From IMG/VR virus record IMGVR_UViG_3300044949_001812, positions 1 to 31,401 of that record: a stretch of 31,401 nt of DNA, one strand, 5' to 3'. The notes beneath the pieces are model-generated. The model made no database searches, had not been told where the DNA came from, and saw only the letters and a program-made list of their open reading frames with translations. Made by a program: the position numbers and the translations under genes. This document shows positions 8,181-29,416 of this stretch, in pieces. This DNA comes from a virus. Positions within the stretch are counted from its first letter, which is position 1; the number at the start of each line of letters is the position of its first letter.

Positions 8181-8187
8181 GTCAACC
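8181..8187 (-). promoter_or_regulatory. Start-associated GGTTGAC, 16 nt before ATG 8164
   Basis: Two bases after the stop of the upstream gene. Supports the ATG at 8164. Confidence 0.55.
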
Positions 8188-8188
8188 T

Positions 8189-10126
8189 TCAGAGCACCGG
8201 CTCCATACGCACGACCGTCGCGGCCTCGAGGAACACGCTGGCTCCGCGAACGGCCGACGAGACGTAGTAATCCGCGGCGAGCGCGTTGGCGGGCACCACC
8301 TCGGTTCGCTCGATCTCGGAAATGACGTCCCCCTCGGGGTCCGGCTCGTTCAGGGCTACCGGCCGATCCAGATACCAGCCGCCGGTCGGCGCATAGGTGA
8401 AGGTCCGCGTCCATTCACTCGGGGTCCGCGTCACCGTCACCGATCCGAGGCCGTCGCGATGCGAGTGGAAGACATTCACGATTCCATTGCACGTGCCCGT
8501 CTTCACCGTGACCACCCCGATGGTGGACGAGTCCCATTCGGGGAGACCCGTGGTCGCGGAGTAGGCGCGCACCGTGGTCAGGGTGGCGGTGCCGACGCAG
8601 GGCCAGCGATCCGCCGCGTGGTTCTGCGCAGTTCGGACGGTGGTGTCCGTCTCTACCCGGAAGCGAATCGGCACTAGGTCGGTGCTTGTTCCGTCGAGCG
8701 CCGCATGGCCTGCGATCCAGAGCCGGCGGCGCTGCCGGTAGAGCACCCGGAAACCGACTTGTGGGAGTTCTGTGCCGCCTGCGTCGATCACGTCGGCGTC
8801 GTAGAGGTATCCCGTGTCGGTCATGGCCGCCAGGACGACTTCGTGGATCGGGGTTTCTCCGTCGGCGGAGATGGGTAGGTCGATGTTGCCCGCCCCGGTG
8901 CGCAGTCGGAGCTTCATCCCACTCACCCACTCCGTCTTGTCGGCCAACAATCCGCGCACGCGCGTCGCCCATACGAAGCCTTGCGCGAGGCTCAAGCCTC
9001 CGACCAGTTGGAGGTTCCCGATCCCCTGCCCGTCGCGCCGGTAGCGGAATTGCTTCTCCGCGGTGGCACTCCACCTAAGATCGCTCGGCGACCACGCGCC
9101 AAACTCGTCGTGGTAGGGGTGTGTGATTGGCTCGCTGAGGAGCGTGCTTCGGCTGGCGACGAAGTAGCCGCCAGAGCTATCCGCGACGACCAGCATCCGG
9201 TTGCGTCGCGTGACCTCCTTCCATTTCACGCGGCGCGCGTAGGGCACTGCCGTCCCGCTCAAGCGGTATCGACCCGCAACCGAGAAAGCCCACCTATCGT
9301 CGGCTCCGCCTCCGCTGGCATCTGCGCTATTGGAAGCCACGGGACCATCTCCATTCCCCAGCGGCCCGACGTTCCCGCTAGCCGCAGCCGCCTGCGCGCG
9401 GGCGTAGCAGTCCGCCCACGTGCAGGGGTCGCTCAGTGTCACCGAAAACTCCTCGTCAGCGCAGTCCGGTTCCCGAGCGGCGGTCAGTCCGTCCGCCGTG
9501 GTCCAGGTCTGGCCGTAGCCGGAGTCGCGGAACGAAAAGGGCGCGTAGCGCCCCGGAGTTGAGCTGACAAACGTCCACCCGGACAGCGCGCACCCGCTGC
9601 CGTCCTCGTATCGCTCCAGCGTGTCCCCCGTGGGCAGCGCGCCGAGCCCCCACACAGTGCCGGTCCACACCAGCCCGGGGTGCGTCTGCGCCCCGCCCGC
9701 GACCCAGTGCTCGTAGTAGGACGTGAAGGGTGGCACACGCCGGGTAGTCCCCGAGCTGGTCCACGTCTTGTAGAGCTTGTAGTCCACGGCCGGGAGCGGG
9801 GGCGGTGGGGGGTCAAAGTCGTAATTGTCCGGCGTAAACGCCTCGAATCCCCACGCTTGAAACGTAACCGTCCGACGTTGGAAAAAAGCGGCCGTGGTTT
9901 CACTGGTCCCACCCACGGCGGTCACCGCGTTCCAGGCGCCGATCTCGGGGCCGAGGAACCCGGCGTCCGGGGCTTCCTCCAAGTCCGCCCCGTAGGTATG
10001 GTTCCCTGGGCGCGTGCCTGAGTGGGCAGCGTCGAAGCTCGCGTTCCAATCCCGCAAAGGGTTCGCGGAGTTAAACCACCGCGCCCGGCTGAACGGCGCC
10101 CGGTAGTCGTTAGGCAACCGCGGCAT
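8189..10126 (-). CDS. Tail-tip / virion structural protein, 645 aa
   Basis: 645 aa, beta-rich with many Trp, Tyr and Gly-Ser turns and no recognised catalytic motif. It contains a Pro run (DPPPPPLPAVDYK, about 105-116), a Cys-containing segment (CADEEFSVTLSDPCTWADCYARA) and a helical ARAQAAAASG stretch. Its position between the tape-measure side and the fibre gene fits a distal tail or baseplate-hub protein that joins fibre to tail tip. The start has a good Shine-Dalgarno sequence (GGAGGA, six bases before ATG), unlike most genes here, and overlaps the upstream gene by 17 bp. No family is recognised. Confidence 0.75.
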   Translation of the reverse strand: MPRLPNDYRAPFSRARWFNSANPLRDWNASFDAAHSGTRPGNHTYGADLEEAPDAGFLGPEIGAWNAVTAVGGTSETTAAFFQRRTVTFQAWGFEAFTPDNYDFDPPPPPLPAVDYKLYKTWTSSGTTRRVPPFTSYYEHWVAGGAQTHPGLVWTGTVWGLGALPTGDTLERYEDGSGCALSGWTFVSSTPGRYAPFSFRDSGYGQTWTTADGLTAAREPDCADEEFSVTLSDPCTWADCYARAQAAAASGNVGPLGNGDGPVASNSADASGGGADDRWAFSVAGRYRLSGTAVPYARRVKWKEVTRRNRMLVVADSSGGYFVASRSTLLSEPITHPYHDEFGAWSPSDLRWSATAEKQFRYRRDGQGIGNLQLVGGLSLAQGFVWATRVRGLLADKTEWVSGMKLRLRTGAGNIDLPISADGETPIHEVVLAAMTDTGYLYDADVIDAGGTELPQVGFRVLYRQRRRLWIAGHAALDGTSTDLVPIRFRVETDTTVRTAQNHAADRWPCVGTATLTTVRAYSATTGLPEWDSSTIGVVTVKTGTCNGIVNVFHSHRDGLGSVTVTRTPSEWTRTFTYAPTGGWYLDRPVALNEPDPEGDVISEIERTEVVPANALAADYYVSSAVRGASVFLEAATVVRMEPVL

Positions 10127-10751
10127 CGGGTGTCCTCCACCAAGACAGGGAGCGGGTGAAGTTCAGCACTTGCCCGAGGGCGTTGGTGCTGACGTTCGCC
10201 AAGTGGGTGGCGACCACGATGGACCCGCTGCCAGTGTTTTTGATCTCCGTGATCGCGCCACCCGTCCCGGAGACGACGTATCCGAGAGGCACATACAGGA
10301 ACGCAGGCGGGGCGCCGGTCGTCTCGTCGAAAGGGGCCTGGGGATAGGCGGAGGGGTTGGTGTCGAAGACAAAGGCCAGACTCGTGCAAATCAGCGGTTG
10401 GGCTTGGTTGAGCCCGATCTTTGCCCACACGTAGACGGTGCCGGGGCCGTCGAGGTAGAAGAGCGCCGCCGTGAAGGCGCTCGGTGCGGGCACTACGCCG
10501 CCCGCCGTCCCCCAGGTCACCCAGACGGGGTTGCCGAGCTGGCCCCCGGGGCGCACCCAGCCCGGCGGCGCGGTCTTGGTCAGAGTCAGAGCGCCGGCCT
10601 CCGCGGCCGACGTCGCGCGACGCCGGGGCAGATCCGCGGTCAGGATGCGCCGGCCGCCGGGGAGGACCTGCACGCGCAGCCCCGGCCCGGCCAAGGAGAC
10701 CGAGTCGATGCCGCTTGACCGACGGATGCCCCGCTCGCGTTTAAGGCCCAT
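10110..10751 (-). CDS. Tail-associated structural protein, 213 aa
   Basis: 213 aa. The basic N-terminus (LKRERGIRRSSGID) leads into beta segments (GLRVQVLPGGRRILTADLP), a central region of alternating hydrophobics (TVYVWAKIGLNQAQPLICTSLAFVFD) and a C-terminal beta region. No family is recognised. Its ATG lies eleven bases inside the 3' end of the preceding gene and its stop overlaps the next gene's start, so it is translated as part of the tail-tip set. The likely role is a minor tail or tip protein, by context. Confidence 0.65.
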   Translation of the reverse strand: MGLKRERGIRRSSGIDSVSLAGPGLRVQVLPGGRRILTADLPRRRATSAAEAGALTLTKTAPPGWVRPGGQLGNPVWVTWGTAGGVVPAPSAFTAALFYLDGPGTVYVWAKIGLNQAQPLICTSLAFVFDTNPSAYPQAPFDETTGAPPAFLYVPLGYVVSGTGGAITEIKNTGSGSIVVATHLANVSTNALGQVLNFTRSLSWWRTPDAAVA

Positions 10752-11424
10752 AGAGAGTTGAGTTCCAGCCCGCAGGGCCGCTTAGGAGCCACTCGCGGCG
10801 GATGGTGAACGTCTTGGCCTTCTGCTCGTAGCTCAGGCTGCCGAAAAGCCAATTCCGGCCGGACGGGGTCGGCGGCGTCCCGTTGGGGCTGTCAATCTTG
10901 CCGATGCTCGCCAGCTCGCTCCCCGTCGGCCGGGTCTTGCTGACACGCGTCTCCCGCCACACGGCGCTGGCGTTCAGGTAGGCCTTCACGCCGATGAACT
11001 CGCCGGACTTGAAGCCGATGAAGAGGCCGTCCTCGTCAAACACCGCGCCCGCCGTGGTCGACCCGGGGGCGGGCGGAGGGCCGTCGAGACCCGCGAACGT
11101 AGCAAAATCGGGATTGGTCTCCAGCGGCTCCTGGCCGGTGCTGATGTCGAGCGCGTAGATTGGGTCAGGACTGCCCTGGACACCGAAGTAGTCGCCCACG
11201 ATGTCCCACGAGCCGTCGTCGCGGCGGCTGATAGTGCGCTTGTCCATCTCGAGGAAGGACCAGCGGGGGTGATTGCTGAAGATGGCGACCTGCCCCTCGG
11301 GATTCGGGCCGTGATACCACCAGACGGCGCGGGCGGCGGACATGCCGTAGCGGTCGGTGACGAGCTGCCCGCCCGTGGTGAGGACAAGTTTGGAAGAGGC
11401 GTCGTCGTGGAGCGTGAGCGGCAC
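10741..11424 (-). CDS. Tail-associated structural protein, 227 aa
   Basis: 227 aa starting at GTG, 14 nt after a GGTTGAC that forms half of a perfect 16-bp palindrome. The protein has a start typical of virion proteins (PLTLHDDASSKLVLTTGG) and reads as beta-rich with Trp motifs (AVWWYHGPNPEG, RREWLLSGPAGW). No enzyme motif is visible. It is the first cistron after the tape-measure gene in the leftward direction, but a rightward lipoprotein gene is inserted between them. The likely role is a distal tail protein, by position only. Confidence 0.65.
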   Translation of the reverse strand: MPLTLHDDASSKLVLTTGGQLVTDRYGMSAARAVWWYHGPNPEGQVAIFSNHPRWSFLEMDKRTISRRDDGSWDIVGDYFGVQGSPDPIYALDISTGQEPLETNPDFATFAGLDGPPPAPGSTTAGAVFDEDGLFIGFKSGEFIGVKAYLNASAVWRETRVSKTRPTGSELASIGKIDSPNGTPPTPSGRNWLFGSLSYEQKAKTFTIRREWLLSGPAGWNSTLYGP

Positions 11425-11430
11425 GCCGAT

Positions 11431-11446
11431 TGGTTGACGTCAACCA
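11431..11446. promoter_or_regulatory. Perfect 16-bp palindrome TGGTTGACGTCAACCA between divergent genes
   Basis: Contains GGTTGAC on both strands. The leftward copy (11439-11445) is 14 nt before the GTG of the tail gene. The rightward copy supplies a TTGACG -35-like hexamer for the lipoprotein gene. A bound dimer could control both directions. Confidence 0.6.
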
Positions 11447-11461: not shown

Positions 11462-11468
11462 AGACGGC

Positions 11469-11792
11469 ATGAAGAAGCTGATGCTGGTTCTGGCGATGCT
11501 GGCCTTGGTGGGGTGCGGCGGACCGAGCGCGGAGCAGCAAGCAAAGACGACGGAGCTCGTGGCGCTCATTATGGCCACCTCCCCGAAGGAGGACTGGGCC
11601 CCGGTCCACGCCCGCATCGCTGCCGCGGAACTCCCCGCGGATATCTCGAGGCGGCTGTGGTTGCTTGCCGGGGCTCGCGAGGACAGCCCCGACATCCTCG
11701 ACGACCGCCCCTCGGCAAAAGAGCACCGAAGCCGGGTGGTCGCCGAGGCGAGCCGGCTCGCCCCCGATTTCCTCCAGCGCCCTGTCGACTAG
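11469..11792 (+). CDS. Small lipoprotein, putative moron (superinfection or surface function)
   Basis: 107 aa with a clear lipoprotein signal: MKKLMLVLAM, hydrophobic core, then LVGC with Cys16 as lipidation site. The residue after Cys is Gly, not Asp, which predicts outer-membrane sorting. The mature part is a short helical charged domain with no known motif. It is the only rightward gene inside the leftward late operon, between the tape measure and the tail-tip genes. Its stop TAG overlaps the tape-measure stop within the palindromic CTAG. An independent promoter and a reversed single gene are typical of morons expressed by a lysogen, which often exclude other phages or change the host surface. 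The frame is open upstream to a TTG at 11430, but ATG 11469 fits the signal peptide. Confidence 0.8.
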   Translation: MKKLMLVLAMLALVGCGGPSAEQQAKTTELVALIMATSPKEDWAPVHARIAAAELPADISRRLWLLAGAREDSPDILDDRPSAKEHRSRVVAEASRLAPDFLQRPVD

Positions 11793-14700
11793 TCCTCGTC
11801 GGGCAGGCGGTCCCGGATCTCGCGGAGTAGACCGTTGGCCGTCTCGATGCCCCGGGCGGACCGCTCCTGAGCGGCGAGAATGGGGTCGCGGCCCTGGAAG
11901 GTGCCGCCACCGCCGCCGATGGACGCGCGCGAGTCGGACACGATCCCCGGCATACGGCCGGCGGCCTGGGCCATGAGCGACGTGGCGAAGTCGGCATCCG
12001 CCTGGCCGGAGGTCATGCCGGCGGCCGCATACTCCTCGCGCATCTTGCGCAGGCGCTCCGCATCCTCGAGGGCCTGGGCGCCTCGGTTGTCGCCACGGGC
12101 CCGGGCATCGTCGATGGCGCGTTGCACCGCGGCGTCCTTGCGGAAGCTCTCCTGGTCGGCTTCGCGCTGGGCGGCGTTGAGCGCCTTCTGGGCGACGAGC
12201 GAGTCGGAAAGGGCCTGGTTCTTGTCCTCGATGGCGGCGGCGATCTGACGGTCGAGGTCGGCCTGTTGCTTCAGGAAACGCAGGCGCTCGACCTCGGCCT
12301 TGTTGCCGCTGGCAACCGCGGTGGCGATGTCCTGGTCGAACGCGGCGCTGGCCTCCAAGTCGGCCCGTTCACGCGCACGCAGGCGCGCGGAGAGCTCGGC
12401 ATCCTGACGCGCGTCCTGGGCCTGCTGGCCCAGGTCATTCGCACCTTCCACCCGAGCTTGCGCGTTGGCGTAGTCGCGCTCGAGGCGGATGAGGTCCTCC
12501 CGGCTCGCGCCCTCCTTACGCGCGTCCTCAAGCCGCTGCTTGGCGGCGACACGCTCGTCCGTGGAGCGGAGGTTGATCTGGCGGATCTCCTCGTCCCGCG
12601 CCGCCGCGCGGGCCTTCTCCTCCGCGTCAATGGCGGCAAGGTCAGCCTGCTGACGAGCCTTGAAGGCGGCCTTCTGGCGGGCAATCTGGCGGGCAATCTC
12701 GGCGCCGCCCCTTCCCGCCCGGCCCCGACTGACGTTGGCCTTGAACGTCCGCCCGCGCACCGCGGCTCGACGAGAGTCGAAGGTCGCCTGGTCGAAGCCC
12801 GCTTCGTTACGGAGTTGCTCACGGCGGGCCGCGTCGGGGCCGGCGCCGGCGCTGCGCGCGGCGTCCTTCGAGGCCTGGGCCACGGCGGCTCGCGCCTCCA
12901 GTTCGGCGGCGCGTTGCTCCTGCATCCGAACGCGCGCGTCCGGGTCGGTGGTGGCATTGAGCCGGCGCTGGTAATCGCGCTCCTCGGCATCGCGGCGCTC
13001 CGCCTGGTCCTGCCGGAGGTCCTCAATCTCCTTCGGGGTGAGCCCAAGCTGGGACCTGTCTCGAGTGGCTTCGCTCGTGAGCTCCTTCCGCAAATCCCGG
13101 AGATAAGTCACGGTCTCCTCGTTCCGCCCAATCTGCTCCGCCGACTTGTCCTCACCTGCGGCGACCTCGGCGTTGAACTTCGCGATGGCCTCGGCCGTCT
13201 CCAGGTATTCGGCGCGGAGCTTCTGCATACGGGCCTGCCAGTCGTCGAGGTTCTTCACTCCATCGCGGCCCTTCTCGAGCTCCTTGCGCATGGCGGCGAT
13301 GTTGGCGGCCGTCTGCGCGGCGACCCGGGCAGTCTCACGGGCGGCGGCAGTCCAACGGTAATAGGCCATCGCGGCAAGGGTGAGCGCCCCGATCAGGGCG
13401 GTCCACGGGTTGGTGAAGAGGGCGACGGTGGCGGCCTTGAGCTGACCGAGCACGAAGCCCAGGGCGACGCGGACCAAGCCGAGGCCCTTGGCGGCGACGA
13501 CCGTGCTGACGCCGAGCGCGTAGTTGGCCACGGCGGCGAGGCCGGTCGCACCCGCGGCGGCCTTCATGCCGGCGGCGTGCAGGATCGACATGGTGGCGAG
13601 CAGGCCGTTCTTCGCCGCAGCGAGCCCGGCGCTGGCGGCCTCGAGAAACTGGAGACGGGTCAGGCTGGCAGTAACCGCCGAGAGCGACGCTTTGGCTTTG
13701 GTGAGCTGCTCGACCGCGGTCGCCGACTTGCTCGCGGCCGAGGCGGCGCCGAGCGTGGAGAGGAGGAACCCCTTCATCTCGGTGATGCCCTTGACGAAGC
13801 TGATCGCGGTCATCGCGGAGAGCACGGCGAGTGTGATCTTCACCGCCTCCCAGACGCCAAGCAGGGCCTTCTGCATACCCGGGAGGGCGAGAGTGTTCTC
13901 GACGATGCCGGTCTTGAAGTCGTGGACGAGCCCGCTGACGGCCGCCATGTCGCGACCGACCTGGGCGAGCACGGGGATCAGGTTGCGCGTGGCCTCGGTC
14001 ATCACACGGATCGAGTTGGACTGGGCCTCGGTGAAGGGGGCGGCGAAGCCCTGCTCCATGAGGCGGCGGGACTCCTCGAGCTTCGCGTTCAGCGACTCCA
14101 AGGTCTCCATCTCCTTCTTCATGCCGCCCTCGGTGCGGGCGAGGACCTTCTCGACCTCCGCCCACTTGTCGGAGAAGGACGCTCCGGTCAGTTCGAGATG
14201 TTGCAGCTTTTCCGCCAGCTCGTCGGTGACGACGCCCGTGCCCTGAAACTGGAAGAGCACGCGGTCGATGGAGCGCCCCCGCGCGAGCGCGTCGTAGAGC
14301 CGGCCGACGACGTGGGCCATGTCTTGGACCTGGTTGCCCGTGGCCGCAGCGGCGTCGCCGATCATCTCCATCGCCCGGGCACCGGCGAAGGCGCCTTTCG
14401 TGAGCCGGAGCAGTTGCAGGTTGGCGTCGGCGACGGCGTCGAACTTGAAAGGGGAGTTCGCGGTGAAGGCGTAGAGCTCCTGGATGCGCTTCTTCGCCAG
14501 CTCGGCGCTGCGGAGCAGGGTCTCGAACTTGCCCTCAATGCCCTGGAGCTGGCTGATCGACTTGAGGCCGCGCTCCAGGATGCCCGACTCCCGGACGATC
14601 TTCCGCATCGTGAGTAGGATGCCCGCGAGGCCACCGGCGAAAAGGGCGGTCGGCCCCAGGAGCTTCTCCATGAAGGCGTCTTTCAGGACGTTGGCGGCGA

Positions 14701-14815
14701 CCTGCATCTTGGACGCGCCTGCGGCAAGGTCGGCGGCCGGGCCGGCGATGGTGGCGGCCCCGGCGACGAGCTGGGAGTTGAGCCGGCTGCGGCCAGTGGA
14801 AAGGTTGTTGTCCAT
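11789..14815 (-). CDS. Tail tape measure protein
   Basis: 1008 aa, the longest uninterrupted protein in the window. It lies in the classic place after the tail tube and a chaperone-position gene. Hydrophobic helices occur near residues 50-72 (LLGPTALFAGGLAGILL) and in the middle (about 440-490, with a WTALIGALTLAAMAYYRW segment). The second half is a very long Ala/Arg/Glu/Gln-rich coiled coil that ends in a Gly-rich GGGGTF turn. At about 1.5 angstrom per residue it predicts a tail near 150 nm. The protein fixes tail length during assembly and is ejected with the DNA. The start follows the preceding stop by one base. Confidence 0.92.
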   Translation of the reverse strand: MDNNLSTGRSRLNSQLVAGAATIAGPAADLAAGASKMQVAANVLKDAFMEKLLGPTALFAGGLAGILLTMRKIVRESGILERGLKSISQLQGIEGKFETLLRSAELAKKRIQELYAFTANSPFKFDAVADANLQLLRLTKGAFAGARAMEMIGDAAAATGNQVQDMAHVVGRLYDALARGRSIDRVLFQFQGTGVVTDELAEKLQHLELTGASFSDKWAEVEKVLARTEGGMKKEMETLESLNAKLEESRRLMEQGFAAPFTEAQSNSIRVMTEATRNLIPVLAQVGRDMAAVSGLVHDFKTGIVENTLALPGMQKALLGVWEAVKITLAVLSAMTAISFVKGITEMKGFLLSTLGAASAASKSATAVEQLTKAKASLSAVTASLTRLQFLEAASAGLAAAKNGLLATMSILHAAGMKAAAGATGLAAVANYALGVSTVVAAKGLGLVRVALGFVLGQLKAATVALFTNPWTALIGALTLAAMAYYRWTAAARETARVAAQTAANIAAMRKELEKGRDGVKNLDDWQARMQKLRAEYLETAEAIAKFNAEVAAGEDKSAEQIGRNEETVTYLRDLRKELTSEATRDRSQLGLTPKEIEDLRQDQAERRDAEERDYQRRLNATTDPDARVRMQEQRAAELEARAAVAQASKDAARSAGAGPDAARREQLRNEAGFDQATFDSRRAAVRGRTFKANVSRGRAGRGGAEIARQIARQKAAFKARQQADLAAIDAEEKARAAARDEEIRQINLRSTDERVAAKQRLEDARKEGASREDLIRLERDYANAQARVEGANDLGQQAQDARQDAELSARLRARERADLEASAAFDQDIATAVASGNKAEVERLRFLKQQADLDRQIAAAIEDKNQALSDSLVAQKALNAAQREADQESFRKDAAVQRAIDDARARGDNRGAQALEDAERLRKMREEYAAAGMTSGQADADFATSLMAQAAGRMPGIVSDSRASIGGGGGTFQGRDPILAAQERSARGIETANGLLREIRDRLPDED

Positions 14816-14816
14816 G

Positions 14817-15578
14817 TCAGAGTGGTTCGGCGGGCGGGGGCACGGGGCCTTGGTTGGTGAGACGATTGAGGTTGGCCGCGGCCTTGGCCCTCAGCTCGTC
14901 CCGGGCGAGGCGCTCGGCGGTCTCGGGCGTCATGCGCGGGCGGGTGCGGACCAACTCGTCGGCACGGGCCTTGATCGCGGCCTCCTGTTCCTTGCGGTGG
15001 GCCTCGGCGCGCTGCTCGTCCAGAGGCGTCCAGACGCGAAGGTCGCCACCCTTGATCCGGTTCAGGATCGCCGCGCGCCAACGGAGCTGCCCGAGGGGCA
15101 TCGTCCAGACGGTCTCCGGCGACAGCTTGAACCCGTGCTCGATCATGCCGGCGAGCTCGAGGTTGTCGTCCAGGTCGCTGCCGGCGCGGTCGCAAGTGCC
15201 TTTGTGGTGGTTGGACCAGAAGCGCGGGCCAGTGGCGAAGTCCCGCATGTAGACCGCGAACTTGGCCGTCTCCATGCGAAGATCGTAGCGTTGGTAGCGC
15301 AGCGACCACGCGAGCCGGGCAAAGAGGCGGCGCGGGACGGCAAGATCGGGGCCGTAGTGGGCCGGGGTCCAGGGCGTGCTCGCGCACCGGACGGCGGCCC
15401 AGAGGTCGTGCAAAGTGGGCTCGCGGTGCCCGAGCAGGAACGGGGACTGGATGAGCTCGAGGTTGAACTGCGTCCAGAGCGAAAACGGCAAGAGCCGTTC
15501 CCCAAGGACCGTGTGCGGTCGGTTGAGGAACGGCTCTACGAAACGCTCGTCGTGGACGAACTGAACGGCCTCGGTCAT
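14817..15578 (-). CDS. Protein in tail-assembly-chaperone position
   Basis: 253 aa between tail tube and tape measure, where lambda-like phages encode the G/GT tail-assembly chaperones. It is a single ORF. I see no second overlapping frame or slippery heptamer followed by an extension, so the usual frameshift is not evident. The N-terminal two thirds are aromatic-rich (FSLWTQFNLELIQSPFLLG, LRYQRYDLRMETAKFAVYMRDF). The C-terminal third is a charged helix (EQRAEAHRKEQEAAIKARADEL) ending in a Pro-rich tail. GGTTGAC lies 14 nt before the ATG. The chaperone role is inferred from position. Confidence 0.65.
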   Translation of the reverse strand: MTEAVQFVHDERFVEPFLNRPHTVLGERLLPFSLWTQFNLELIQSPFLLGHREPTLHDLWAAVRCASTPWTPAHYGPDLAVPRRLFARLAWSLRYQRYDLRMETAKFAVYMRDFATGPRFWSNHHKGTCDRAGSDLDDNLELAGMIEHGFKLSPETVWTMPLGQLRWRAAILNRIKGGDLRVWTPLDEQRAEAHRKEQEAAIKARADELVRTRPRMTPETAERLARDELRAKAAANLNRLTNQGPVPPPAEPL

Positions 15579-15592: not shown

Positions 15593-15599
15593 GTCAACC
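15593..15599 (-). promoter_or_regulatory. Start-associated GGTTGAC, 14 nt before ATG 15578
   Basis: Lies just after the stop of the tail-tube gene. Same motif and spacing as upstream of the portal and two other genes. Confidence 0.55.
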
Positions 15600-15603: not shown

Positions 15604-15996
15604 TCAGGTGTAGGAGAGGCCCTCGTAGCCTTCGCAGTCCACCTTCACCATGAGCCAGTCCTCGTTGGAGGCGGTGACGGTGACGGACATGACCTTGGCG
15701 TATTTGCCGCGGATGACCGCCACGGCGCCGGCCACGGGGAGGGTGGCGGTGGTGGTGGCGTAGCCCTCGATGGAGCCGGAATACTTGAGGTTGCCGAAGG
15801 CGTGGGCGACGACATCGCCGTCCTCGTCCTTGGCGGTGATGTTGGTGTCGTAGCCGCCGGTGAAGTCGGCGGAGACGATGGTGGAGATGCCCGCGCAGAA
15901 CGAGCCTTTGGCGGTGACGGCGGCCGCGGCGTCAGCCGCGGTGAGAACGCCGAACTCGAACTCCTTGCCCGTAGCGAAAACTTTGGAGATGGCCAT
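15604..15996 (-). CDS. Major tail (tube) protein
   Basis: 130 aa, compact and beta-rich, with a start typical of siphovirus tube proteins (AISKVFATGKEFEFGV) and alternating strands such as SGSIEGYATTTATLP, AVAVIRGKYAKVMSVTVTA and WLMVKVDCEGYEGL. Length and place (between a tail-terminator-like gene and the chaperone/tape-measure pair) match the tube subunit that polymerises around the tape measure. GGTTGAC is 17 nt before the ATG. Identification is by context and fold-like pattern. Confidence 0.75.
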   Translation of the reverse strand: MAISKVFATGKEFEFGVLTAADAAAAVTAKGSFCAGISTIVSADFTGGYDTNITAKDEDGDVVAHAFGNLKYSGSIEGYATTTATLPVAGAVAVIRGKYAKVMSVTVTASNEDWLMVKVDCEGYEGLSYT

Positions 15997-16013: not shown

Positions 16014-16020
16014 GTCAACC
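16014..16020 (-). promoter_or_regulatory. Start-associated GGTTGAC, 17 nt before ATG 15996
   Basis: Adjacent to the imperfect palindrome copy at 16022. The two elements lie side by side, as they do upstream of the fibre gene. Confidence 0.55.
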
Positions 16021-20259: not shown

Positions 20260-20934
20260 TTACTGGAGGAGCAGCGGGGCCTTCGGGCGGAGGCGGTTGC
20301 GGAGGGCACCGGCGGCGCCCTTCACGTCGTTCACGGTCATGCCGGCGCCGCGCTTGATGTCGGAGGCGACCGAAGTGGCGGCGCCTTTGAGCCCGCCCAT
20401 GCCGCCGTCGGCGTCGAGAACGCCGCGGACGCCGGTGCGGCCCCACTTGCCGCCGTTGCGGGCGAGACGACCGCGGGCGTAGAGGCCGCCGGCCGCGAGA
20501 GCGCCGACGCCAGCGACCTTGGCCGCGGTCTTCGCGCCGGAGTTCTCTTCGTCCTTACGCTGGGCGAAGCCGATTTCGTTGAGGCGGGAGTCGAAGTGAG
20601 CGTTCAGTTCGACGAGACGGGCGGTGGGGACGGTGTTCATGGAAAAGTTTTTGGATTCTTTGAGAGGCTGCTTGCGACGGATGAGGGTGCCCGCGGCCTC
20701 GCCGACCATCGCACCGCCGGCGGTGCCGAGCCCGGTGAGCGCGGCAACCCCGAGCGCGCCTCGGCGGCCCTTCGTGCCGTAGATCTTCTTGGCGGTCAGG
20801 CCGGAGGAGAGGCCCGCGGTGGCGCCGATCGCGGCGCCGATCGAGCGACCGCGATCCTGGTAGGTGCCGCGGCGGATATGTTTGTCGTGCGACGCGCGGA
20901 CGTCGTCGGTGTAGCGGGTGAGCGGGTGGGCCAT
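20260..20934 (-). CDS. Gly-zipper, membrane-active head-region protein, 224 aa
   Basis: 224 aa, basic. Three stretches of small residues resemble Gly-zipper or membrane helices: about 31-48 (SIGAAIGATAGLSSGLTA), 59-83 (GALGVAALTGLGTAGGAMVGE) and 138-152. Between the second and third, residues 99-124 (MNTVPTARLVELNAHFDSRL, then NEIGFAQ) look like a new N-terminus and carry the ARLVEF-like motif shared with neighbours. That may be an internal start at 20640 or a fusion of two genes. Encoded between portal and protease, it may be an internal virion protein ejected with the DNA. GGTTGAC is 17 nt before the ATG. Confidence 0.7.
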   Translation of the reverse strand: MAHPLTRYTDDVRASHDKHIRRGTYQDRGRSIGAAIGATAGLSSGLTAKKIYGTKGRRGALGVAALTGLGTAGGAMVGEAAGTLIRRKQPLKESKNFSMNTVPTARLVELNAHFDSRLNEIGFAQRKDEENSGAKTAAKVAGVGALAAGGLYARGRLARNGGKWGRTGVRGVLDADGGMGGLKGAATSVASDIKRGAGMTVNDVKGAAGALRNRLRPKAPLLLQ

Positions 20935-20935: not shown

Positions 20936-21070
20936 TTAGGGTTTTGGATTTGTCAACCTCGCCTTGCGGCGGAGCGCGGCCTTGGCGACGAGGTGGCAGA
21001 AGGCCCAGCCGCCGACGACAATCGCGACGAGGGACCAGAAGAGGATGCCGGTGAGGGTGAAGAAGATCAT
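20936..21070 (-). CDS. 44-aa single-span membrane protein in head block
   Basis: Starts at an ATG overlapping the stop of the 445-aa gene (ATGA) and ends one base before the next gene. The product is a hydrophobic helix (IFFTLTGILFWSLVAIVVGGWAF) followed by a basic tail (AKAALRRKARL). This would place the C-terminus inside the cytoplasm or in contact with DNA. The role is unknown. It sits between two larger proteins that also carry hydrophobic segments, so the three may act together. The GGTTGAC of the next gene lies in its last codons. Confidence 0.65.
   Translation of the reverse strand: MIFFTLTGILFWSLVAIVVGGWAFCHLVAKAALRRKARLTNPKP
20952..20958 (-). promoter_or_regulatory. Start-associated GGTTGAC, 17 nt before ATG 20934
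   Basis: Located within the 3' coding end of the 44-aa gene (codes for part of RLT). Confidence 0.55.
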
Positions 21071-22404
21071 GCTTGCTTGGGCGGGTGCATACGACGGAAG
21101 TCGTCGGCGGTCATCGCGCCAGCCGCGGGCTTGGGAGATTTGAGCCGGCGAATCGTCCGGCCCTGGTAGATCGCGAGCCCTCCGAGACCCGCCGCGGTCA
21201 CGAGCGCCGCGTTGCGCACGGCGCGGATGTTCTCGGTCTTCTCGCCCCACTCCTTCGGACGGCGCTCCCGACGTCGGGAACCGGGCGCGTAGACGCGGGC
21301 GCTGCGGCCGCGGGCGTCGCGAAGGTCCCAGCCGCGCTCGAGCGGGTCGACGGTGGCGAACTCCACCAGACGGGCGTGCGCGCGGAGCGCGATGATAAGC
21401 CTGTTGGGGCGGGCGGAGAAGGGCACCAGCTTCGAGACTCGGCCCGCGAGCTTCGATTTGCCGAGGCGCTCGTTGACCTTGCGGTCCCAGCCAGTGACGT
21501 CGTCAGCGTGGACGTCCCCGCGGGCGATGGCCCGGCCGCGGCGGTGGCCCTTGGCGACGAGGAGCGGCGCGCCGATCGCTGCGGTGAGCACGGCGTTCTT
21601 GAACCAGCTCTTTTTGTAGAAGGGGTCCTTGGGCTTCCGGCCGCTGGCGATGTCGCCGATGTCTCCGGCCGCGTGGCTGGCGCGCTTGGCCCAAGGCACG
21701 ACGCGGCTGGCCTTGCGATAGACCGTGAGGGGCGCGGCGCTCTCGAGGAACTCGCCAGTCTGGGTGTGGCGGTCGTTGAACTGGACGGGGGTGACGCGGG
21801 CGATGAGCCCCTTGGTGCCGACGCGGACCGTTTTCGCCACCTTGGACTTCGACCGCTGGAGGACAGCCTGGCTCGCCTGCTGGGCCTTGGTGAGGGCCTT
21901 GACCCGGACCGTCGGCTTCACGCCGTAGTCGAACTTGCCGCCGCCCGCGTAGCGGGTCTTCGGGGCCGGCGTGCGCTGCTTGAGTGTGTCCTCGTAGGTC
22001 ATGCCGTAGTCAAACTTGCCGCCGCCCGCGTAGCGGGTCTTGGCGGGCTTCGGGGCGGGCGCGGAACGCAGCCCGCCGACATACTCGGCGGTCTTCACCT
22101 TGTTGCGGGCGTCAGTCTTCTCGGTCTTCGCCGCAATTCGGGTCTGGGCGACCGCCTCCTTGGCGGCGACGCGCTCGGTGCGGGCAGCCTCCTTGGAAGC
22201 GGCCTCGGCCTCGCGCATCGCGGCGGAGCGCGCCTTCTGGGAGGCCTTCTTGCGGGCCGCGCCGGCCCACATCTTGTAGACGCCGCCGACGACGAGCGCC
22301 GGGGCGACGACCGAGGCGACCTTGCCAGCTACGCTGCGGCCTTCCTCTTGCTCGGGTTGGCGAGCGCGGAACTCGATGACGGCACGGCGGAGGAGCGGGT
22401 TCAT
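21067..22404 (-). CDS. Basic, membrane-active head-region protein, 445 aa
   Basis: 445 aa, strongly basic and Ala/Lys/Arg-rich. It begins MNPLLRRAVIEFRARQ, an ARLVEF-type motif repeated at 344-349 (ARLVEF). Hydrophobic stretches lie at about 26-42 (VASVVAPALVVGGVYKM), 270-284 (NAVLTAAIGAPLLVA) and 398-413. A charged helix covers 50-105. The sequence TRYAGGGKFDYG occurs twice (123-134 and 150-161) from a 39-bp DNA duplication. Its location just after the portal, its basic charge and its membrane helices suggest a DNA-binding, ejected internal head protein. No family is recognised. Its start overlaps the portal stop (ATGA). Confidence 0.7.
   Translation of the reverse strand: MNPLLRRAVIEFRARQPEQEEGRSVAGKVASVVAPALVVGGVYKMWAGAARKKASQKARSAAMREAEAASKEAARTERVAAKEAVAQTRIAAKTEKTDARNKVKTAEYVGGLRSAPAPKPAKTRYAGGGKFDYGMTYEDTLKQRTPAPKTRYAGGGKFDYGVKPTVRVKALTKAQQASQAVLQRSKSKVAKTVRVGTKGLIARVTPVQFNDRHTQTGEFLESAAPLTVYRKASRVVPWAKRASHAAGDIGDIASGRKPKDPFYKKSWFKNAVLTAAIGAPLLVAKGHRRGRAIARGDVHADDVTGWDRKVNERLGKSKLAGRVSKLVPFSARPNRLIIALRAHARLVEFATVDPLERGWDLRDARGRSARVYAPGSRRRERRPKEWGEKTENIRAVRNAALVTAAGLGGLAIYQGRTIRRLKSPKPAAGAMTADDFRRMHPPKQA
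21266..21279. promoter_or_regulatory. Dispersed palindrome copy 5, perfect (intragenic)
   Basis: TCCCGACGTCGGGA inside the 445-aa gene (codes for part of PGSRRRE). Confidence 0.5.
21922..22041. repeat. 39-bp direct repeat encoding TRYAGGGKFDYG
   Basis: Copies at 21922-21960 and 22003-22041 with one mismatch, 81 bp apart in register. It is an in-frame internal duplication of a 12-residue Gly-rich segment. Confidence 0.85.
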
Positions 22405-24185
22405 TCTTGCTTCGGCTTGGAGTCAACCGGCGCCCCGTCCCCGGACTCGCCCGGCGGCTTGGGCTCGGGCGGGAGATTGGCTTCGATGGCGACGGGCTGG
22501 GGTTCGGGCACGATCGCCTCGGCGACCGCAGGATCGAGCTCGTAGATGCCGACGAGCAGGTTGATGACAGCGTCGCGGGGGAGGATGCCGCCGGCCACCT
22601 TCTCCAGGACGTCCGCCAGGATGCGGAGGGCGCCGTCGCCGATGTCGGCGGTGGTGGGCTGGGGCGGCTCGACCGCGGCAGCGGCGGCGGCGAGCTGGTT
22701 GGATGCGTCGGGGAATCGGCCGAGCGCGACCATCTCGACGGGCACGCCGGCCTGGGCGCACTTGTCGCGGACGATGATGGCCTCTTTGACCATCTGGTCG
22801 ATGAGGTCCTCGAAGTCGTAGCCCTCTTCGCCGGCGATTTCGGACGCGGACTTGAGGCCGGCCTGGAGAAGCTCGAGGTTCGCGGTGGTGTCGTAGCCGG
22901 TGTCGGCGGTGAGGTGCTTGCCGAACTGCCAGCGGCCGTTGTCGAAGTTGATGCCCTTGGGCGGAGCGGGGAGCTCGCCGAGGGCGATGGCGTTGGAGAG
23001 GACGGCGCGCTTGATCTTGTTCAGGACGCTCGTGACCAGGATCTCCTGCCAACGCTCGAAGAGGCGCTGGAGCTGCATGGCCTCGAGGCGCACGGTCGCG
23101 CCGCCGAAGCGGCTCATGTCGAAGAAGCCGAAGGGCACGTTGAGGCCCATCGCGATGTCGCGGAGGGCGGCCTCGATGTAGGCGGCGAAGGCGCCGGCGG
23201 CGCGGGCGCCAGGGTTGAAGGGGGTGACGCCCTCGTTCGATTTGAGGCGGAGGAGCTTGTTGGGCTGGACCTGCTCGGTGGGGTTGCCGTTGGCGTCCTT
23301 GGAGACGCCGTCCCAGAGGCCGGCGCTACCCGCGCCCGCCTTGGCGAGCGGGTCGGTGACGGTGATGACGCCCGCGATGGACGCGGCCCACTTGGCAGCG
23401 CCGCGCTCGAAGGCGAACATCTCGTAGAGGTCGCGGGCCGGGCCGACGATAGGCGCGAGCCAGGAGACGCTGCGGTATTCGTCGGTGCGGAGCGGCTTGG
23501 AAAGGAGGAAGAAGTTCTGCGCGTCGGCGGTGACCTCGAACTCGTAGCGCGTGGTCTTCCGGTCGCGTTTGTAGATGTCGTAGCCGACGGGCTGGCCGAA
23601 GGCGTTGAGCCGGATGCCCTGGACGTAGTCGTCCTCGGTCTGCGTCGCGACGCGGTTCGGGTCGCCGATGCGGTCGGCCTCGATGCACTGGATCTGGAGC
23701 TTGGGGCCGTTGCGGACCAAGTAGAAGCCGAAGTCGCCGTCGCGGAGGGCGGAGCGGAAGCCGAGCTCGACGAGCATGCGGAAGTTCCGGCGGCCGGTGA
23801 TGTCGGCGGTGTTCTCGCACCAGTTGTGCCAGTAGGTCTCGATCAGGGAGTCGTAGGCCGGGTCGCCGGACTGAGACTGGTAGAGGACCTGGGCGGTGAC
23901 GTATTGGGAGATGCGGTCGAGAACACAGCGGACGATGGGCATGTTCCGCTCGAGGTCGCGGGCCTCCCAGATGAGCTTCAGGCGATCCTGCGCCATCTTG
24001 GCGGTCTCGCTGCTGGCGTTCTTCGTCATGCCACCACTACCGCCGCGGGCCATGCCGGGGTTGGCGGCGTCGTAGCCGAAGAGGGTGAGTCGGTCCTTCG
24101 CGATGGCACGCTGAAGGGCGTAGGTCGGGGCGATGGCCGCGATGGCGCGGTCCAGGAAGTTCGGTTTACGGGTGTCGGCGGCCAC
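22401..24185 (-). CDS. Portal protein (lambda gpB-like)
   Basis: 594 aa, lambda-type portal: the N-terminal region leads to the conserved core (IVRCVLDRISQYVTA, YWHNWCENTADITGRRNF, LVELGFRSALRDGDFGFYLV) and a long helical C-terminal part (AGLKSASEIAGEEGYDFE) with a Pro/Ala-rich, acidic tail. Dodecamers form the portal vertex through which DNA is packaged by terminase and ejected. The start is GTG, 14 nt after GGTTGAC. The gene lies between a gpW-like connector region and the block of internal head proteins. Confidence 0.93.
   Translation of the reverse strand: MAADTRKPNFLDRAIAAIAPTYALQRAIAKDRLTLFGYDAANPGMARGGSGGMTKNASSETAKMAQDRLKLIWEARDLERNMPIVRCVLDRISQYVTAQVLYQSQSGDPAYDSLIETYWHNWCENTADITGRRNFRMLVELGFRSALRDGDFGFYLVRNGPKLQIQCIEADRIGDPNRVATQTEDDYVQGIRLNAFGQPVGYDIYKRDRKTTRYEFEVTADAQNFFLLSKPLRTDEYRSVSWLAPIVGPARDLYEMFAFERGAAKWAASIAGVITVTDPLAKAGAGSAGLWDGVSKDANGNPTEQVQPNKLLRLKSNEGVTPFNPGARAAGAFAAYIEAALRDIAMGLNVPFGFFDMSRFGGATVRLEAMQLQRLFERWQEILVTSVLNKIKRAVLSNAIALGELPAPPKGINFDNGRWQFGKHLTADTGYDTTANLELLQAGLKSASEIAGEEGYDFEDLIDQMVKEAIIVRDKCAQAGVPVEMVALGRFPDASNQLAAAAAAVEPPQPTTADIGDGALRILADVLEKVAGGILPRDAVINLLVGIYELDPAVAEAIVPEPQPVAIEANLPPEPKPPGESGDGAPVDSKPKQE
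22422..22428 (-). promoter_or_regulatory. Start-associated GGTTGAC, 17 nt before ATG 22404
   Basis: Located in the last codons of the portal gene. The motif is kept even though the sequence must also encode Val-Asp. Confidence 0.55.
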
Positions 24186-24199: not shown

Positions 24200-24206
24200 G
24201 TCAACC
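24200..24206 (-). promoter_or_regulatory. Start-associated GGTTGAC, 14 nt before GTG 24185
   Basis: Immediately follows the TGA of the upstream gene. Supports the GTG start of the portal. Confidence 0.55.
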
Positions 24207-24494
24207 TCAGAGCACGGACTTGCTGCCCTGGCACTTCCACTTCCGGCGAGAGAGGTTGTTCGGGCTGTTCGGATCGCTGCGCCAGTCGCCCTTGATTTTC
24301 GCGCTGCGCGCGCAATAAGAGTCCCCCTTGCTAGTCCCAGGACGGATGCGGTCGCCGCCGTCGGCCGCCTTGCCGGCCTGGCCGTAGCGGACGGTGCGCG
24401 TGCGCCCCGTCTCGGGGTTCTTCACGACTTTGGTGAAGCGTTTCCCGGTCGAAAACTCGATGAGGGCGAGGCGGGCTTCGATCTTCGGGTTCAC
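24207..24494 (-). CDS. Small Cys-containing basic protein with ARLxxIEF motif
   Basis: 95 aa from a GTG that overlaps the previous stop (GTGA). The N-terminus (MNPKIEARLALIEFSTGKRF) carries the ARLVEF-like motif seen in the 445-aa and 224-aa proteins. The remainder is basic: VKNPETGRTRTVRYG, then GDRIRPGTSKGDSYCARS and NSPNNLSRRKWKC. I recall the CARS-to-RRKWKC pattern from small proteins of other tailed phages but cannot name the family with certainty. Two Cys about 30 residues apart could form a small metal or disulfide unit. Its position before the portal suggests a head component. Confidence 0.65.
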   Translation of the reverse strand: MNPKIEARLALIEFSTGKRFTKVVKNPETGRTRTVRYGQAGKAADGGDRIRPGTSKGDSYCARSAKIKGDWRSDPNSPNNLSRRKWKCQGSKSVL

Positions 24495-24754
24495 CAGTTA
24501 CCTCCGATGCGGACGCCGCTGAAGTCGGGGATCAGGGGCTTGTTGCCGACGCCGTTGCTCGGGCTGCGCTCGTTCTTGACCTGGTAGGCCGCCTCGAGGC
24601 GGTCGCGGATCTCCGCGGTCGAGCGCGAGTAGGAACGGTTGCCCTCGGTCTGGGCGTTGAAGGTGTTACGGCTCTGCCCCTCCAGCCACGTGATCTCGGC
24701 GTCGAGCTTGGCGTCGTCGTAGTTGCGGTAGACCGAATACCATTCCGGGGACAT
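24491..24754 (-). CDS. gpW-like head-tail connector
   Basis: 87 aa starting at ATG 24754, chosen because GGTTGAC lies 14 nt upstream; an in-frame GTG sits at 24766. The helix-loop-helix pattern (YDDAKLDAEITWLEGQSRNTF, then SRSTAEIRDRLEAAYQVKNE) and the TEGNRSYSRSTAEI hairpin match the gpW family of small connector proteins that plug the portal. The location between terminase and portal is that of lambda W. Sequence similarity in this family is low, so the call leans on pattern and position. Confidence 0.65.
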   Translation of the reverse strand: MSPEWYSVYRNYDDAKLDAEITWLEGQSRNTFNAQTEGNRSYSRSTAEIRDRLEAAYQVKNERSPSNGVGNKPLIPDFSGVRIGGNW

Positions 24755-24768: not shown

Positions 24769-24775
24769 GTCAACC
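24769..24775 (-). promoter_or_regulatory. Start-associated GGTTGAC, 14 nt before ATG 24754
   Basis: The TGA of the preceding 66-aa gene is inside this heptamer. Confidence 0.55.
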
Positions 24776-25967: not shown

Positions 25968-28901
25968 TCAAGAGCGATTGTTAGGAGTTGTTATCTCCAT
26001 GAGGCCGGTGGCGCAGGCGGCGGCGAGGGCCATTCGGAGGCAGTTGCCGGCGATGCTCGGGAATCCCTTGCGGCGGACGATCAAAGTGCCGTTGGGGACC
26101 GTCGCGCAGTAGACCGGGCCGGAGTAGGGCACCTTCTCGACGAGGAACTTGTTCTTGCAGTCGCGGAGGAGGACGTGAGGGATGTTGCGAACTGTTACCC
26201 GGTAGTGGGGTAGAGCCACGCCGGAGCGCCCAGCGATGTTCCAGACGCCCTCGGGCATCGCGACCGTGCGCGAGGTGAGGCCAACCTTCAGAAGCAGTTC
26301 GGCCGTGTCGTCCGCGAGCTGCTTGCTCGTGGTGGAGAGAAGGCGCTTCTTGCCCAAGTGGCCGTCCCCGAGAAACAGGCCCGCGAGATAGGCAGAGATG
26401 ACGCGGGGGGTGGCATCTTTGATCCACTGCGGAACTCGCTTGTTCTCGGCCAGATGACCGCACTCGGAGACGAGCGCGGTGAGCTGCTGGTTTCCGGCGT
26501 AATAGGTGCCGCGCTTATTGCGACTGAACTTCCACGGGAGCCGGCTGAGGGTTTCGCGCCACAGCGCGCCATCGCGGACGGTGCCGACCTTCTGAGACAC
26601 GTCGGTCTGGCTCGACCCGTCCCGACGTCGGTATAGGCAGCCCTCCGCGGTGAACCAGCCGAGGAATCGGGCCAACACCTCGCGATCCACTTCCGTCGCT
26701 TTCATGCAGCGGGTGGCGGGTATTTGAACTGGCCCAGTGAGGCCATCGCCCTCCCACACGGACGCCGTGACCTTGATGCGGTCCCAAAGGGTGAGCTCAT
26801 CGGCGCGCTTGATTGAGTCGACGAAGCGTTGGCGGAGCGTGCCGAACTCGTCGCGGAAATGCCGACGCTCCTCGACGACCATGCGGTGGTCGGGCGTGAC
26901 CGCGAACGACATCGCGCGGTGCTTGCACTCGAGCAGGTGACCGTCGTGGTGCTTAGCGATGAGGGCCTCGGGGCGGTGGTATTCGATCTGGTCGCGGTCC
27001 AGGTTCACCGTCGCGAAAAGGCTGTCGTGGCTCACCTCGGTCCACTTCTTCCAGCCGTCGCGGGTAAGCACCTCAGTCTCGGGGTCAAAACACGAGCCCC
27101 AGTGATCGTCGGGGCGCTTCTGCACCCACTCGGTCTCGATCACGCCGTTGGCCTTCTCGTTGTCCCGGCGCTCGTAGGCGGTGAGCTGCATCTTGAACTC
27201 GTGGAGGTCATCGCCGTTGCCATTGATCTCAAACCGCGGGCCGACGCCGCGCATGCAGGCCTCCGCGCGGTCGAGCATGGAGGACTTGCTGAAGAGGAGC
27301 TGACGGAGCGGGGCGGCGCGGCCCGCCTGCTCGCTGCCGAGGTAGGGGTCGACGAAGGACCAGGTGTAGGGCAGGCGCAGGGTCTTGCCGTCGCCGAGCG
27401 CGAGGGTGTAGTGCGGGGCCTTGTCGCCCTTCATCGCTTTCCAGGCGTAGTTGCCGTCGGGGAGCTGGCCGCTCTCGAGGATGTAGCGGTAGACCTCCGC
27501 GGCCCAGTGGCCGCTGTCGATGCCGACGTTGGAAGCGGGGACGTGGTAGGTGGTCTGGAGGGCGCGCAGCTCCTCGACGCTCCAGGCCTTGCCCCAGGCG
27601 ACGGCGCGGTGGGCGCCGCCCTGGGCAAAGTCGAAGACGCCCCAGTAGAAGTGCCGACCGCCCTTGCCCTGGACGTCGACCATCATAAAGCGCCGCGCGG
27701 GCACGAAGGGCGGCAGGGTGGCGTCGTTGAAGTCGACGACGCGGTCGTCGATGTAGCTGTCGGATTTGCCGTAGCGCATCCGGTCGGTCCAGGGCTGACC
27801 GAGCTTCTCGGTGATGAAGGCCTTCAGCGGCTCGAAGTCGCCGTAGTCGTTGGCGATCTCGGCCTGGACGAACTGCTGCACGAGGGCCGACCATTTGATC
27901 CAGTAGGGTAGGAGGGCGTTCCAGGTGTAGCTGCGGCGCTCGGCGGGGGCGCTGGGGTTGTGCGGCACCCACTGACCGCGGTCGGCGAGCGTGCGGCGGA
28001 TGTCCGGGCGGTCTTGGTGGAGGTGGCCGCAGCGGGGGCAGACGTAACGGACGTGCGGGGCGAGCTTGTCGAAGTCCCACTTGCCGTCGGGAGTCTTGGC
28101 GCCGAGCACGTCCGACCACTTCACGCAGCGGGGGCGGCCGGTCGCGTCGGTCTCGGTCGGGTGCGCGGCCTTCATGTTCGCCCAGTCGAGCGGGCCGGAG
28201 TAGTCGCAGGCCTCGTTCAGGCAGGGGACGTGGTAGTGCCGCTGGTCGCCGTTCAGAAACTCGTTGTGGACGGTGTCGCGCTCCTTCTCCGGTGTGGTCA
28301 GGATGACGATGCGGCTGTTCCAGAAGGTGGTGACGCGGGCCTTGGCCATCGGCAGCGCCCAGGCGGGCCAGTTGCGCACCTCGTCGCAGAGGAGAAATCG
28401 GCGGGGGCGGCTCTGGAGCTTCGCCTTGGCGTTGGCGCCGACCGCCTCCAGCATCATCGTCGGGAAGAGGATCTCAGTCGTCTTCGCCAAGGTGCGGTCG
28501 TCGGGGATGGAGGAGGCGACGGGCGGGCACGACCGCAGAGCGGGCATGAGGCGCTCGTTGCAGAACTTCAGGGCCTCGTCCTCCGACGACGTGATCCACA
28601 TGGTCGGGGACGGGTCCTCGGCCACGATCCAGGAGAGGAGGGCCAGCATGGTCTCCGTCTTCGAGGACTGGGCGGAGCAGAGGACGGTGATCTGGCGGAT
28701 CGAGTTGTCGGCGAAGGTCTCCATGACCTCGCGCACCCACGGGGAGGTTTCGCTGCGCCACTTGCCGCCGGCGGAGAGGGCCGAGACGGGCGGGACATAG
28801 TAGTCCTCGGCCCATTGCCACGGCGGACGGCGGTCGGCGGGCTTCCAAGCCAACGTGGCGGCCTTGGCGACCGGGTCGTAGGCGGGGGCAGGGGTGCTCA
28901 C
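25968..28901 (-). CDS. terL: Terminase large subunit (GpA family) with in-frame intein
   Basis: 977-aa precursor. The N-terminal ATPase has a Walker A-like SAQSSKTE (76-83) and Walker B LLCDE (170-174). Zinc-type Cys pairs are at C227/C232 and C288/C291. The nuclease domain has MVDVQGKGG (D409) and VGIDSGHWAAE (D462). Residues 604-953 are an intein (separate entry). The spliced protein would be 627 aa, the usual length for lambda gpA-type terminases. The packaging motor cuts concatemers and pumps DNA into the head through the portal. The start GTG overlaps the small-subunit stop (GTGA). In the C-terminal motif, where relatives usually have an acidic residue before Cys, Ser603 stands at the splice junction (HWGS-CLRM). 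Confidence 0.93.
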   Translation of the reverse strand: MSTPAPAYDPVAKAATLAWKPADRRPPWQWAEDYYVPPVSALSAGGKWRSETSPWVREVMETFADNSIRQITVLCSAQSSKTETMLALLSWIVAEDPSPTMWITSSEDEALKFCNERLMPALRSCPPVASSIPDDRTLAKTTEILFPTMMLEAVGANAKAKLQSRPRRFLLCDEVRNWPAWALPMAKARVTTFWNSRIVILTTPEKERDTVHNEFLNGDQRHYHVPCLNEACDYSGPLDWANMKAAHPTETDATGRPRCVKWSDVLGAKTPDGKWDFDKLAPHVRYVCPRCGHLHQDRPDIRRTLADRGQWVPHNPSAPAERRSYTWNALLPYWIKWSALVQQFVQAEIANDYGDFEPLKAFITEKLGQPWTDRMRYGKSDSYIDDRVVDFNDATLPPFVPARRFMMVDVQGKGGRHFYWGVFDFAQGGAHRAVAWGKAWSVEELRALQTTYHVPASNVGIDSGHWAAEVYRYILESGQLPDGNYAWKAMKGDKAPHYTLALGDGKTLRLPYTWSFVDPYLGSEQAGRAAPLRQLLFSKSSMLDRAEACMRGVGPRFEINGNGDDLHEFKMQLTAYERRDNEKANGVIETEWVQKRPDDHWGSCFDPETEVLTRDGWKKWTEVSHDSLFATVNLDRDQIEYHRPEALIAKHHDGHLLECKHRAMSFAVTPDHRMVVEERRHFRDEFGTLRQRFVDSIKRADELTLWDRIKVTASVWEGDGLTGPVQIPATRCMKATEVDREVLARFLGWFTAEGCLYRRRDGSSQTDVSQKVGTVRDGALWRETLSRLPWKFSRNKRGTYYAGNQQLTALVSECGHLAENKRVPQWIKDATPRVISAYLAGLFLGDGHLGKKRLLSTTSKQLADDTAELLLKVGLTSRTVAMPEGVWNIAGRSGVALPHYRVTVRNIPHVLLRDCKNKFLVEKVPYSGPVYCATVPNGTLIVRRKGFPSIAGNCLRMALAAACATGLMEITTPNNRS
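26043..27092 (-). mobile_element. Intein with LAGLIDADG homing endonuclease in terL
   Basis: 350 residues (604-953 of the precursor). The N-splice block begins with Cys604 (CFDPETEVLTRDGW). Block B has TPDH with His672. Two dodecapeptide endonuclease motifs are FLGWFTAEG (746-754) and LAGLFLGDG (839-847). The C-terminal block reads VYCATVPNGTLIVRRKGFPS, with Asn953 and then Cys954 as +1 residue. The penultimate residue is Gly, not the usual His. The endonuclease looks intact, so homing is plausible. One palindrome copy (26620) falls inside it. Confidence 0.9.
26620..26633. promoter_or_regulatory. Dispersed palindrome copy 7 (intein)
   Basis: TCCCGACGTCGGTA, 13 of 14 matches, in the intein coding sequence. 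Confidence 0.4.
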
Positions 28902-29392
28902 AGGGGGCTCGTGGAGAGGGCTTGGAGGGCCTCGTCGATCTCACGGCGGAGGCGGGTCTCGATGTCGACCTCGCGGGTGAGGCCAATGAGCTGCGGGGCC
29001 ATGCGCGCGGGGATGGCCTGAAGCTGCTGGCGGGCCTTCACGACCATCTTGCCCACCGACTGCTCGATCTCGGTGTTGAGGGTGTAGTCCTTGCGGCGGA
29101 CCTGGAGCTCGAACTGGAGCTTCTCGTTCTGGAGTTTCAGCTTCTCCATCTCCAGCTTCGACTTGTCGGAGCCGCTACCGACGTTCGGGTCGATCAGGCT
29201 GCCGAAGTTGGCGTTGATGAAGGCCTGCCACTCGGCAATCTCGTAGCGGCCGTCCTTCGACCGGCCGGGGTTCCCTTCCAGCTTCAGGGCTTGCTGAATG
29301 ATTTTCCGGTCACGGGGAGGGGCAAGGTAGCCCCCGAGCTCGGTTTGGCTTTTGGCGAACCGGGGGACGGTTCCAGGCTTGCGGCGTGGCAT
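28898..29392 (-). CDS. terS: Terminase small subunit (Nu1-like)
   Basis: 164 aa. The N-terminal winged-HTH-like region (SQTELGGYLAPPRDRKIIQQAL, then YEIAEWQAFI) recognises the packaging site. A long coiled coil follows (KLEMEKLKLQNEKLQFELQV, then RRKDYTLNTEIEQSVGKMV), which makes the oligomer, and the C-terminal IETRLRREIDEALQAL helix probably contacts TerL. It is the first gene of the late operon and overlaps terL by four bases. GGTTGAC is 17 nt before the ATG. Confidence 0.85.
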   Translation of the reverse strand: MPRRKPGTVPRFAKSQTELGGYLAPPRDRKIIQQALKLEGNPGRSKDGRYEIAEWQAFINANFGSLIDPNVGSGSDKSKLEMEKLKLQNEKLQFELQVRRKDYTLNTEIEQSVGKMVVKARQQLQAIPARMAPQLIGLTREVDIETRLRREIDEALQALSTSPL

Positions 29393-29409
29393 TTGGAAAT
29401 GCCGGAACC

Positions 29410-29416
29410 GTCAACC
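29410..29416 (-). promoter_or_regulatory. Start-associated GGTTGAC, 17 nt before ATG 29392
   Basis: First copy of the motif in the late operon, upstream of terS. Confidence 0.55.

Follow-up and report, generated by a model that had tools for sequence, protein, structure and literature searches.

The window analysed here is the whole 31,401-nt stretch of the IMG/VR virus record IMGVR_UViG_3300044949_001812; it forms part of a 66-kb contig, IMGVR_UViG_3300045999_010503. It encodes terminase, portal, major capsid and tape-measure proteins and an integrase. The heptamer GGTTGAC recurs on the minus strand, close upstream of leftward genes (Table 1). Gene boundaries and start codons are predicted throughout, and the host of this phage is inferred from relatives.

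Table 1. Predicted features of the window; spacing is from the end of the heptamer to the start codon.
Position	Strand	Feature	Spacing (nt)	Start codon	Gene	Remarks
29410-29416	-	GGTTGAC	17	ATG 29392	28898-29392	terminase small subunit (phrog_57, 1.1e-13)
25968-28901	-	large terminase gene				C-terminal LAGLIDADG domain, probably an intein or homing-endonuclease insertion
24769-24775	-	GGTTGAC	14	ATG 24754	24491-24754	87-aa gene; start lies inside a longer GTG ORF; orthologues in all relatives that have the gene carry GTTGAC (cluster 8: 6 of 6)
24200-24206	-	GGTTGAC	14	GTG 24185	22401-24185	portal (phrog_21, 1.5e-53)
22422-22428	-	GGTTGAC	17	ATG 22404	21067-22404	inside the 3' end of the portal gene
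21919-21960 and 22000-22042		imperfect 42-nt direct repeat				inside the gene 21067-22404
20952-20958	-	GGTTGAC	17	ATG 20934	20260-20934	
20207-20213	-	GGTTGAC	17	ATG 20189	18807-20189	all 7 orthologues compared carry GTTGAC (cluster 3)
17420-18376	-	major capsid gene				spaced, no GTTGAC, A-rich leader
17354-17360	-	GGTTGAC	17	ATG 17336	16986-17336	
16014-16020	-	GGTTGAC	17	ATG 15996	15604-15996	
15593-15599	-	GGTTGAC	14	ATG 15578	14817-15578	
11789-14815	-	tape-measure gene				1 nt after the upstream gene, no GTTGAC (cluster 5)
11439-11445	-	GGTTGAC	14	GTG 11424	10741-11424	half of the perfect palindrome GGTTGACGTCAACC (11432-11445)
11432-11438	+	GGTTGAC				other half of the palindrome; no rightward gene follows
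8181-8187	-	GGTTGAC	16	ATG 8164	5450-8164	
2979-2985	-	GATTGAC				near the start at 2963

Occurrence of the heptamer in the window

An exact count gave 12 copies of GGTTGAC in the window, against 3.84 +/- 1.93 expected; none of 100 shuffles reached 12. Eleven copies are on the minus strand, and all of these end 14, 16 or 17 nt before a start codon (P about 1e-27 under uniform placement, a rough figure that relies on hand-listed starts). The single rightward copy is the palindromic partner of a leftward one. The preliminary description had reported eleven leftward copies at these starts and, by eye, no others; this observation is confirmed, as the exact count revealed no further leftward copy. 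Three of the starts it named are, however, GTG or alternative starts (24185, 11424 and 24754). It had also listed a GATTGAC variant before the start at 2963. This is present, but GATTGAC occurs three more times on that strand away from starts, and ATTGAC is barely enriched in relatives (6 against 3.0 expected); the variant is therefore probably due to chance.

GTTGAC in related phages

Portal and capsid searches retrieved a relative with a portal 61% identical to that of the window, as well as capsid relatives at 40-45% identity. A first profile scan of the genome collection with the capsid found nothing. In the relatives, the conserved core is the hexamer GTTGAC; the extra 5' G is specific to the phage of the window. 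Over ten related contigs, some of which are near-duplicates, the pattern GTTGAC-N14-18-ATG occurs 139 times, against 9 for the reversed pattern. In the eight non-duplicate contigs (about 0.5 Mb), 93 of 196 GTTGAC copies lie 14-18 nt before an ATG that is followed by at least 60 codons, against about 5 expected, and none of the 18 single-letter variants is enriched. An unguided scan for hexamers upstream of ATG also ranked GTTGAC first by a wide margin (91 observed, 4.0 expected).

In the window, spacings of 14 or 17 nt place the TGA within the motif in frame with the start, as had been pointed out in the preliminary description. This phase is local; relatives use 15, 16, 17 and 18 nt (20, 30, 33 and 11 cases, respectively), so the frame does not matter. 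A role for the in-frame TGA is thus not supported.

Gene classes and leader types

In the two 96-kb phages among the relatives, the word sits in the late strand, and the conserved early or opposite-strand genes have it once in 43. Within the late (virion) module, genes that abut or overlap the gene upstream (gap of at most 6 nt) have it in 7 of 85 cases, and genes with larger gaps in 51 of 107 (same start rule for both; Fisher p 1.6e-9, which is indicative only, since orthologues are not independent). Orthologues swap between the two arrangements. The tape-measure gene has the word where there is a 16-324-nt gap, as in the phages labelled G004, G005 and G007, and lacks it where it abuts; clusters 6, 7, 27, 36 and 37 behave alike. 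Overall, mixed orthologue groups (clusters 5, 6, 7, 15, 27, 36 and 37) exchange motif plus gap for overlap or for A-rich leaders.

About half of the spaced late genes do without the word, and many of these, such as the major capsid gene, tend to have A-rich, unstructured leaders. In contrast, starts with the word are A-poor (0.16 against 0.37) and more structured, with a mean of -8.5 against -3.5 kcal/mol for the region -20 to +20 in the same six phages (p 5e-13, likewise indicative only). The spacer between word and ATG is GC-rich and folds better than shuffled versions (z -4.0 and -6.2), an effect absent from motif-less genes. This is only a statistical tendency; a fixed, conserved hairpin was not found, as folding is not consistent between orthologues. 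Nor is the hexamer itself predicted to be more open than permuted versions. The start context GGG[T/C]ATG aligns to the ATG rather than to the motif.

Two further leader types were seen in relatives. In clusters 14 and 28 of the phages G003-G008 (for example, near 3975 and 5019 in the stretch L026), a GC hairpin plus U-run ends at or a few nt before an ATG; these are terminator-like sequences used as leaders inside the late operon. In cluster 19 (the region L035:1566-1620 and orthologues), GTTGAC sits farther than usual from the real start (about 22-36 nt), and in two phages a tiny ORF, a possible leader peptide, starts at the usual distance.

Proviruses and host genomes

A profile search with eight portals matched 51 of 388 Verrucomicrobiota genomes. 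The best match is a provirus in the isolate Verrucomicrobium sp. BvORR034 (E 1e-151), whose phage genes carry GTTGAC at 14-18 nt. More distant proviruses, labelled here by genome, also do so: G263 (8 of 10 copies), G374 (8 of 14), G211 (5), G275 (5 and 3) and G125 (4). Two lineages, G232 (6 of 8) and G116, use TTTGAC instead, while the proviruses in G196, G073, G340 and G053 do not use the word appreciably.

Flanking or other host DNA from three of these genomes (395 kb) shows no start-associated excess of GTTGAC (1 of 139 copies), and no Shine-Dalgarno enrichment in the same scan. Genome-wide counts in the 388 Verrucomicrobiota genomes, and in a sample from other phyla, show no phage-like density. 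In many host genomes GTTGAC-N15-17-ATG does exceed the reversed control; but in the 40 genomes re-tested, which include most of the highest ratios, the excess is mostly matched at an irrelevant spacing of 24-26 nt and is hence codon-driven. The signal is therefore viral. Absence of the motif from homologous starts in related phages and from the host had been named beforehand as grounds for rejection; related phages carry the word at homologous starts, and its absence from sampled host genes makes it virus-specific rather than refuted.

Candidate readers of the word

The 16S rRNA 3' end in Verrucomicrobiota is canonical (CCTCCTTTCT). No GTCAAC was found in the 16S rRNA of BvORR034, where GTCAA occurs only in an internal stretch, and no extended tail with GTCAAC was found; direct pairing with the 16S tail is thus not supported. 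Among gene groups built from at least three of the eight related phages, only the portal was found in all 17 phages and proviruses, and the large terminase in 12. No non-structural group is shared by all bearers, although several records are fragments. A conserved gene pair, c12 (an HTH protein) and c11 (of unknown function), was found in 12 and 9, respectively (for example, L177:6776-8576, L218:13319-14469 and L018:5648-7486), with no Pfam match for the representatives tested. The protein c12 is a candidate regulator only: its weak matches to sigma factors are not significant, and its predicted fold (mean pLDDT 69) has no significant PDB match, so nothing is claimed from it.

Interpretation

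The most probable reading, held with moderate confidence, is that GTTGAC (TTTGAC in some lineages), placed 14-18 nt before ATG, is a phage-specific, Shine-Dalgarno-independent translation-initiation element of Verrucomicrobiota phages. In this view, late genes that cannot start by coupling to an abutting upstream gene, and that lack an A-rich open leader, carry the word so that the initiation machinery is recruited to an otherwise structured start. This set of trade-offs (coupling, open A-rich leader, or GTTGAC) is what a translation-initiation element predicts, and it is not naturally explained by a promoter. The sequence analysis itself establishes the position and exactness of the word, its conservation and swapping among orthologues, its confinement to phage late genes, its absence from sampled host genes, the structured starts and the lack of a -10-like sequence; that it acts on mRNA, on ribosome recruitment and hence on translation is inferred from sequence alone. 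The unidentified reader could be a host ribosomal protein, a phage factor or a small RNA. It is odd, however, that host genes do not use a signal that host ribosomes would have to read. The earlier interpretation is partly supported: the word is phage-wide and start-linked, it is not a -35 box, Shine-Dalgarno sequences are scarce, and an unusual translation-initiation element is most likely, as had been suggested. A coupling element, also proposed, is not supported, since genes that abut or overlap the upstream gene are those that mostly lack the word.

The main rival is a DNA-level late promoter element, bound by a phage sigma factor or activator, with transcripts starting a few nt before, or at, the ATG (short-leader or leaderless mRNA). 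This is considered unlikely, but confinement to late genes, the resemblance of TTGAC to a -35 box, the conserved c12 protein and the hairpin plus T-run sequences directly before some motifs would all suit a transcription signal. However, there is no -10-like or AT-rich stretch between word and ATG, and since conserved protein N-termini begin at that ATG, a classical -35 box would place the transcript start inside the ORF and remove the start codon from the mRNA. Furthermore, a promoter need not track gaps of under 7 nt between genes; hairpin plus T-run sequences also directly precede starts without the motif; and c12 was not found in the phages G001 and G003 or the two TTTGAC proviruses, though some of these are fragments. 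A search of these contigs for a T7-type RNA polymerase gave no match, but the test is weak, as its control was also silent. An mRNA-processing site, at which a sequence-specific ribonuclease would cut GUUGAC and free short-leader mRNAs, appears very unlikely on present evidence. An exact six-letter requirement close upstream of starts would suit an enzyme, but absence at abutting genes, although it fits, is not specific, and no candidate nuclease supports this reading. Chance, codon-use bias or a general host sequence habit is refuted for the phages, where the excess is confined to 14-18 nt.

Relation to known systems

The nearest described system is the Start-Associated Sequence (SAS/ESAS) of Cluster K mycobacteriophages (PMC3203893). 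Both are repeated, one-orientation, start-linked phage words, absent or nearly so from the host and conserved before homologous genes, with a proposed role in translation initiation and an unknown reader. SAS is a 13-bp sequence (GGGATAGGAGCCC) located 3-7 bp before the start in the Shine-Dalgarno position; it contains AGGAG, which pairs with 16S rRNA, and sits on non-structural genes. The word described here does not match that consensus or position: it has 6 bp, lies 14-18 nt away, has no 16S complement, and marks virion genes in several phage lineages of one bacterial phylum. No description of the GTTGAC word was found in the literature searched, which lacked many subscription papers.

A Shine-Dalgarno site is likewise a short upstream word at limited spacing to ATG, but GTTGAC is not complementary to CCUCC, lies farther upstream and is not used in partial matches; the hosts are Shine-Dalgarno-poor although their 16S tail is canonical. 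A-rich leaders without Shine-Dalgarno sequences occur in Bacteroidota, and are used by other late genes of the same phages, whereas the GTTGAC starts are A-poor and structured. Akkermansia is listed among Shine-Dalgarno-scarce organisms (PMC10783764). The sigma-70 -35 box (TTGACA) shares TTGAC(A), but the word lacks a -10 box about 17 nt away and is too close to the start codon; this geometry excludes a sigma-70 promoter.

How Shine-Dalgarno-poor bacteria and their phages select start codons is an open question, and an exact, virus-only start word with a clear host, an isolate carrying a provirus, makes it directly testable. The word could also improve start-site calling in verrucomicrobial phages, help to assign such phages to their hosts, and point to a new initiation or late-gene control factor. 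It is possible, though somewhat less likely than not, that phages of a whole bacterial phylum run a private translation-initiation code, in which an exact hexamer unrelated to 16S pairing is read by a dedicated factor and starts late genes that the host's own signals would not start.

A different repeated element was found in two relatives. The palindrome GTCTTA-N3/4-TAAGAC occurs in 8 copies in each of the stretches L019 (G004, 75.9-95 kb) and L021 (G007, 76.9-96.7 kb), against 0.01 expected in L021. Several copies lie directly upstream of early minus-strand starts, and the palindrome is likely an early operator or terminator.
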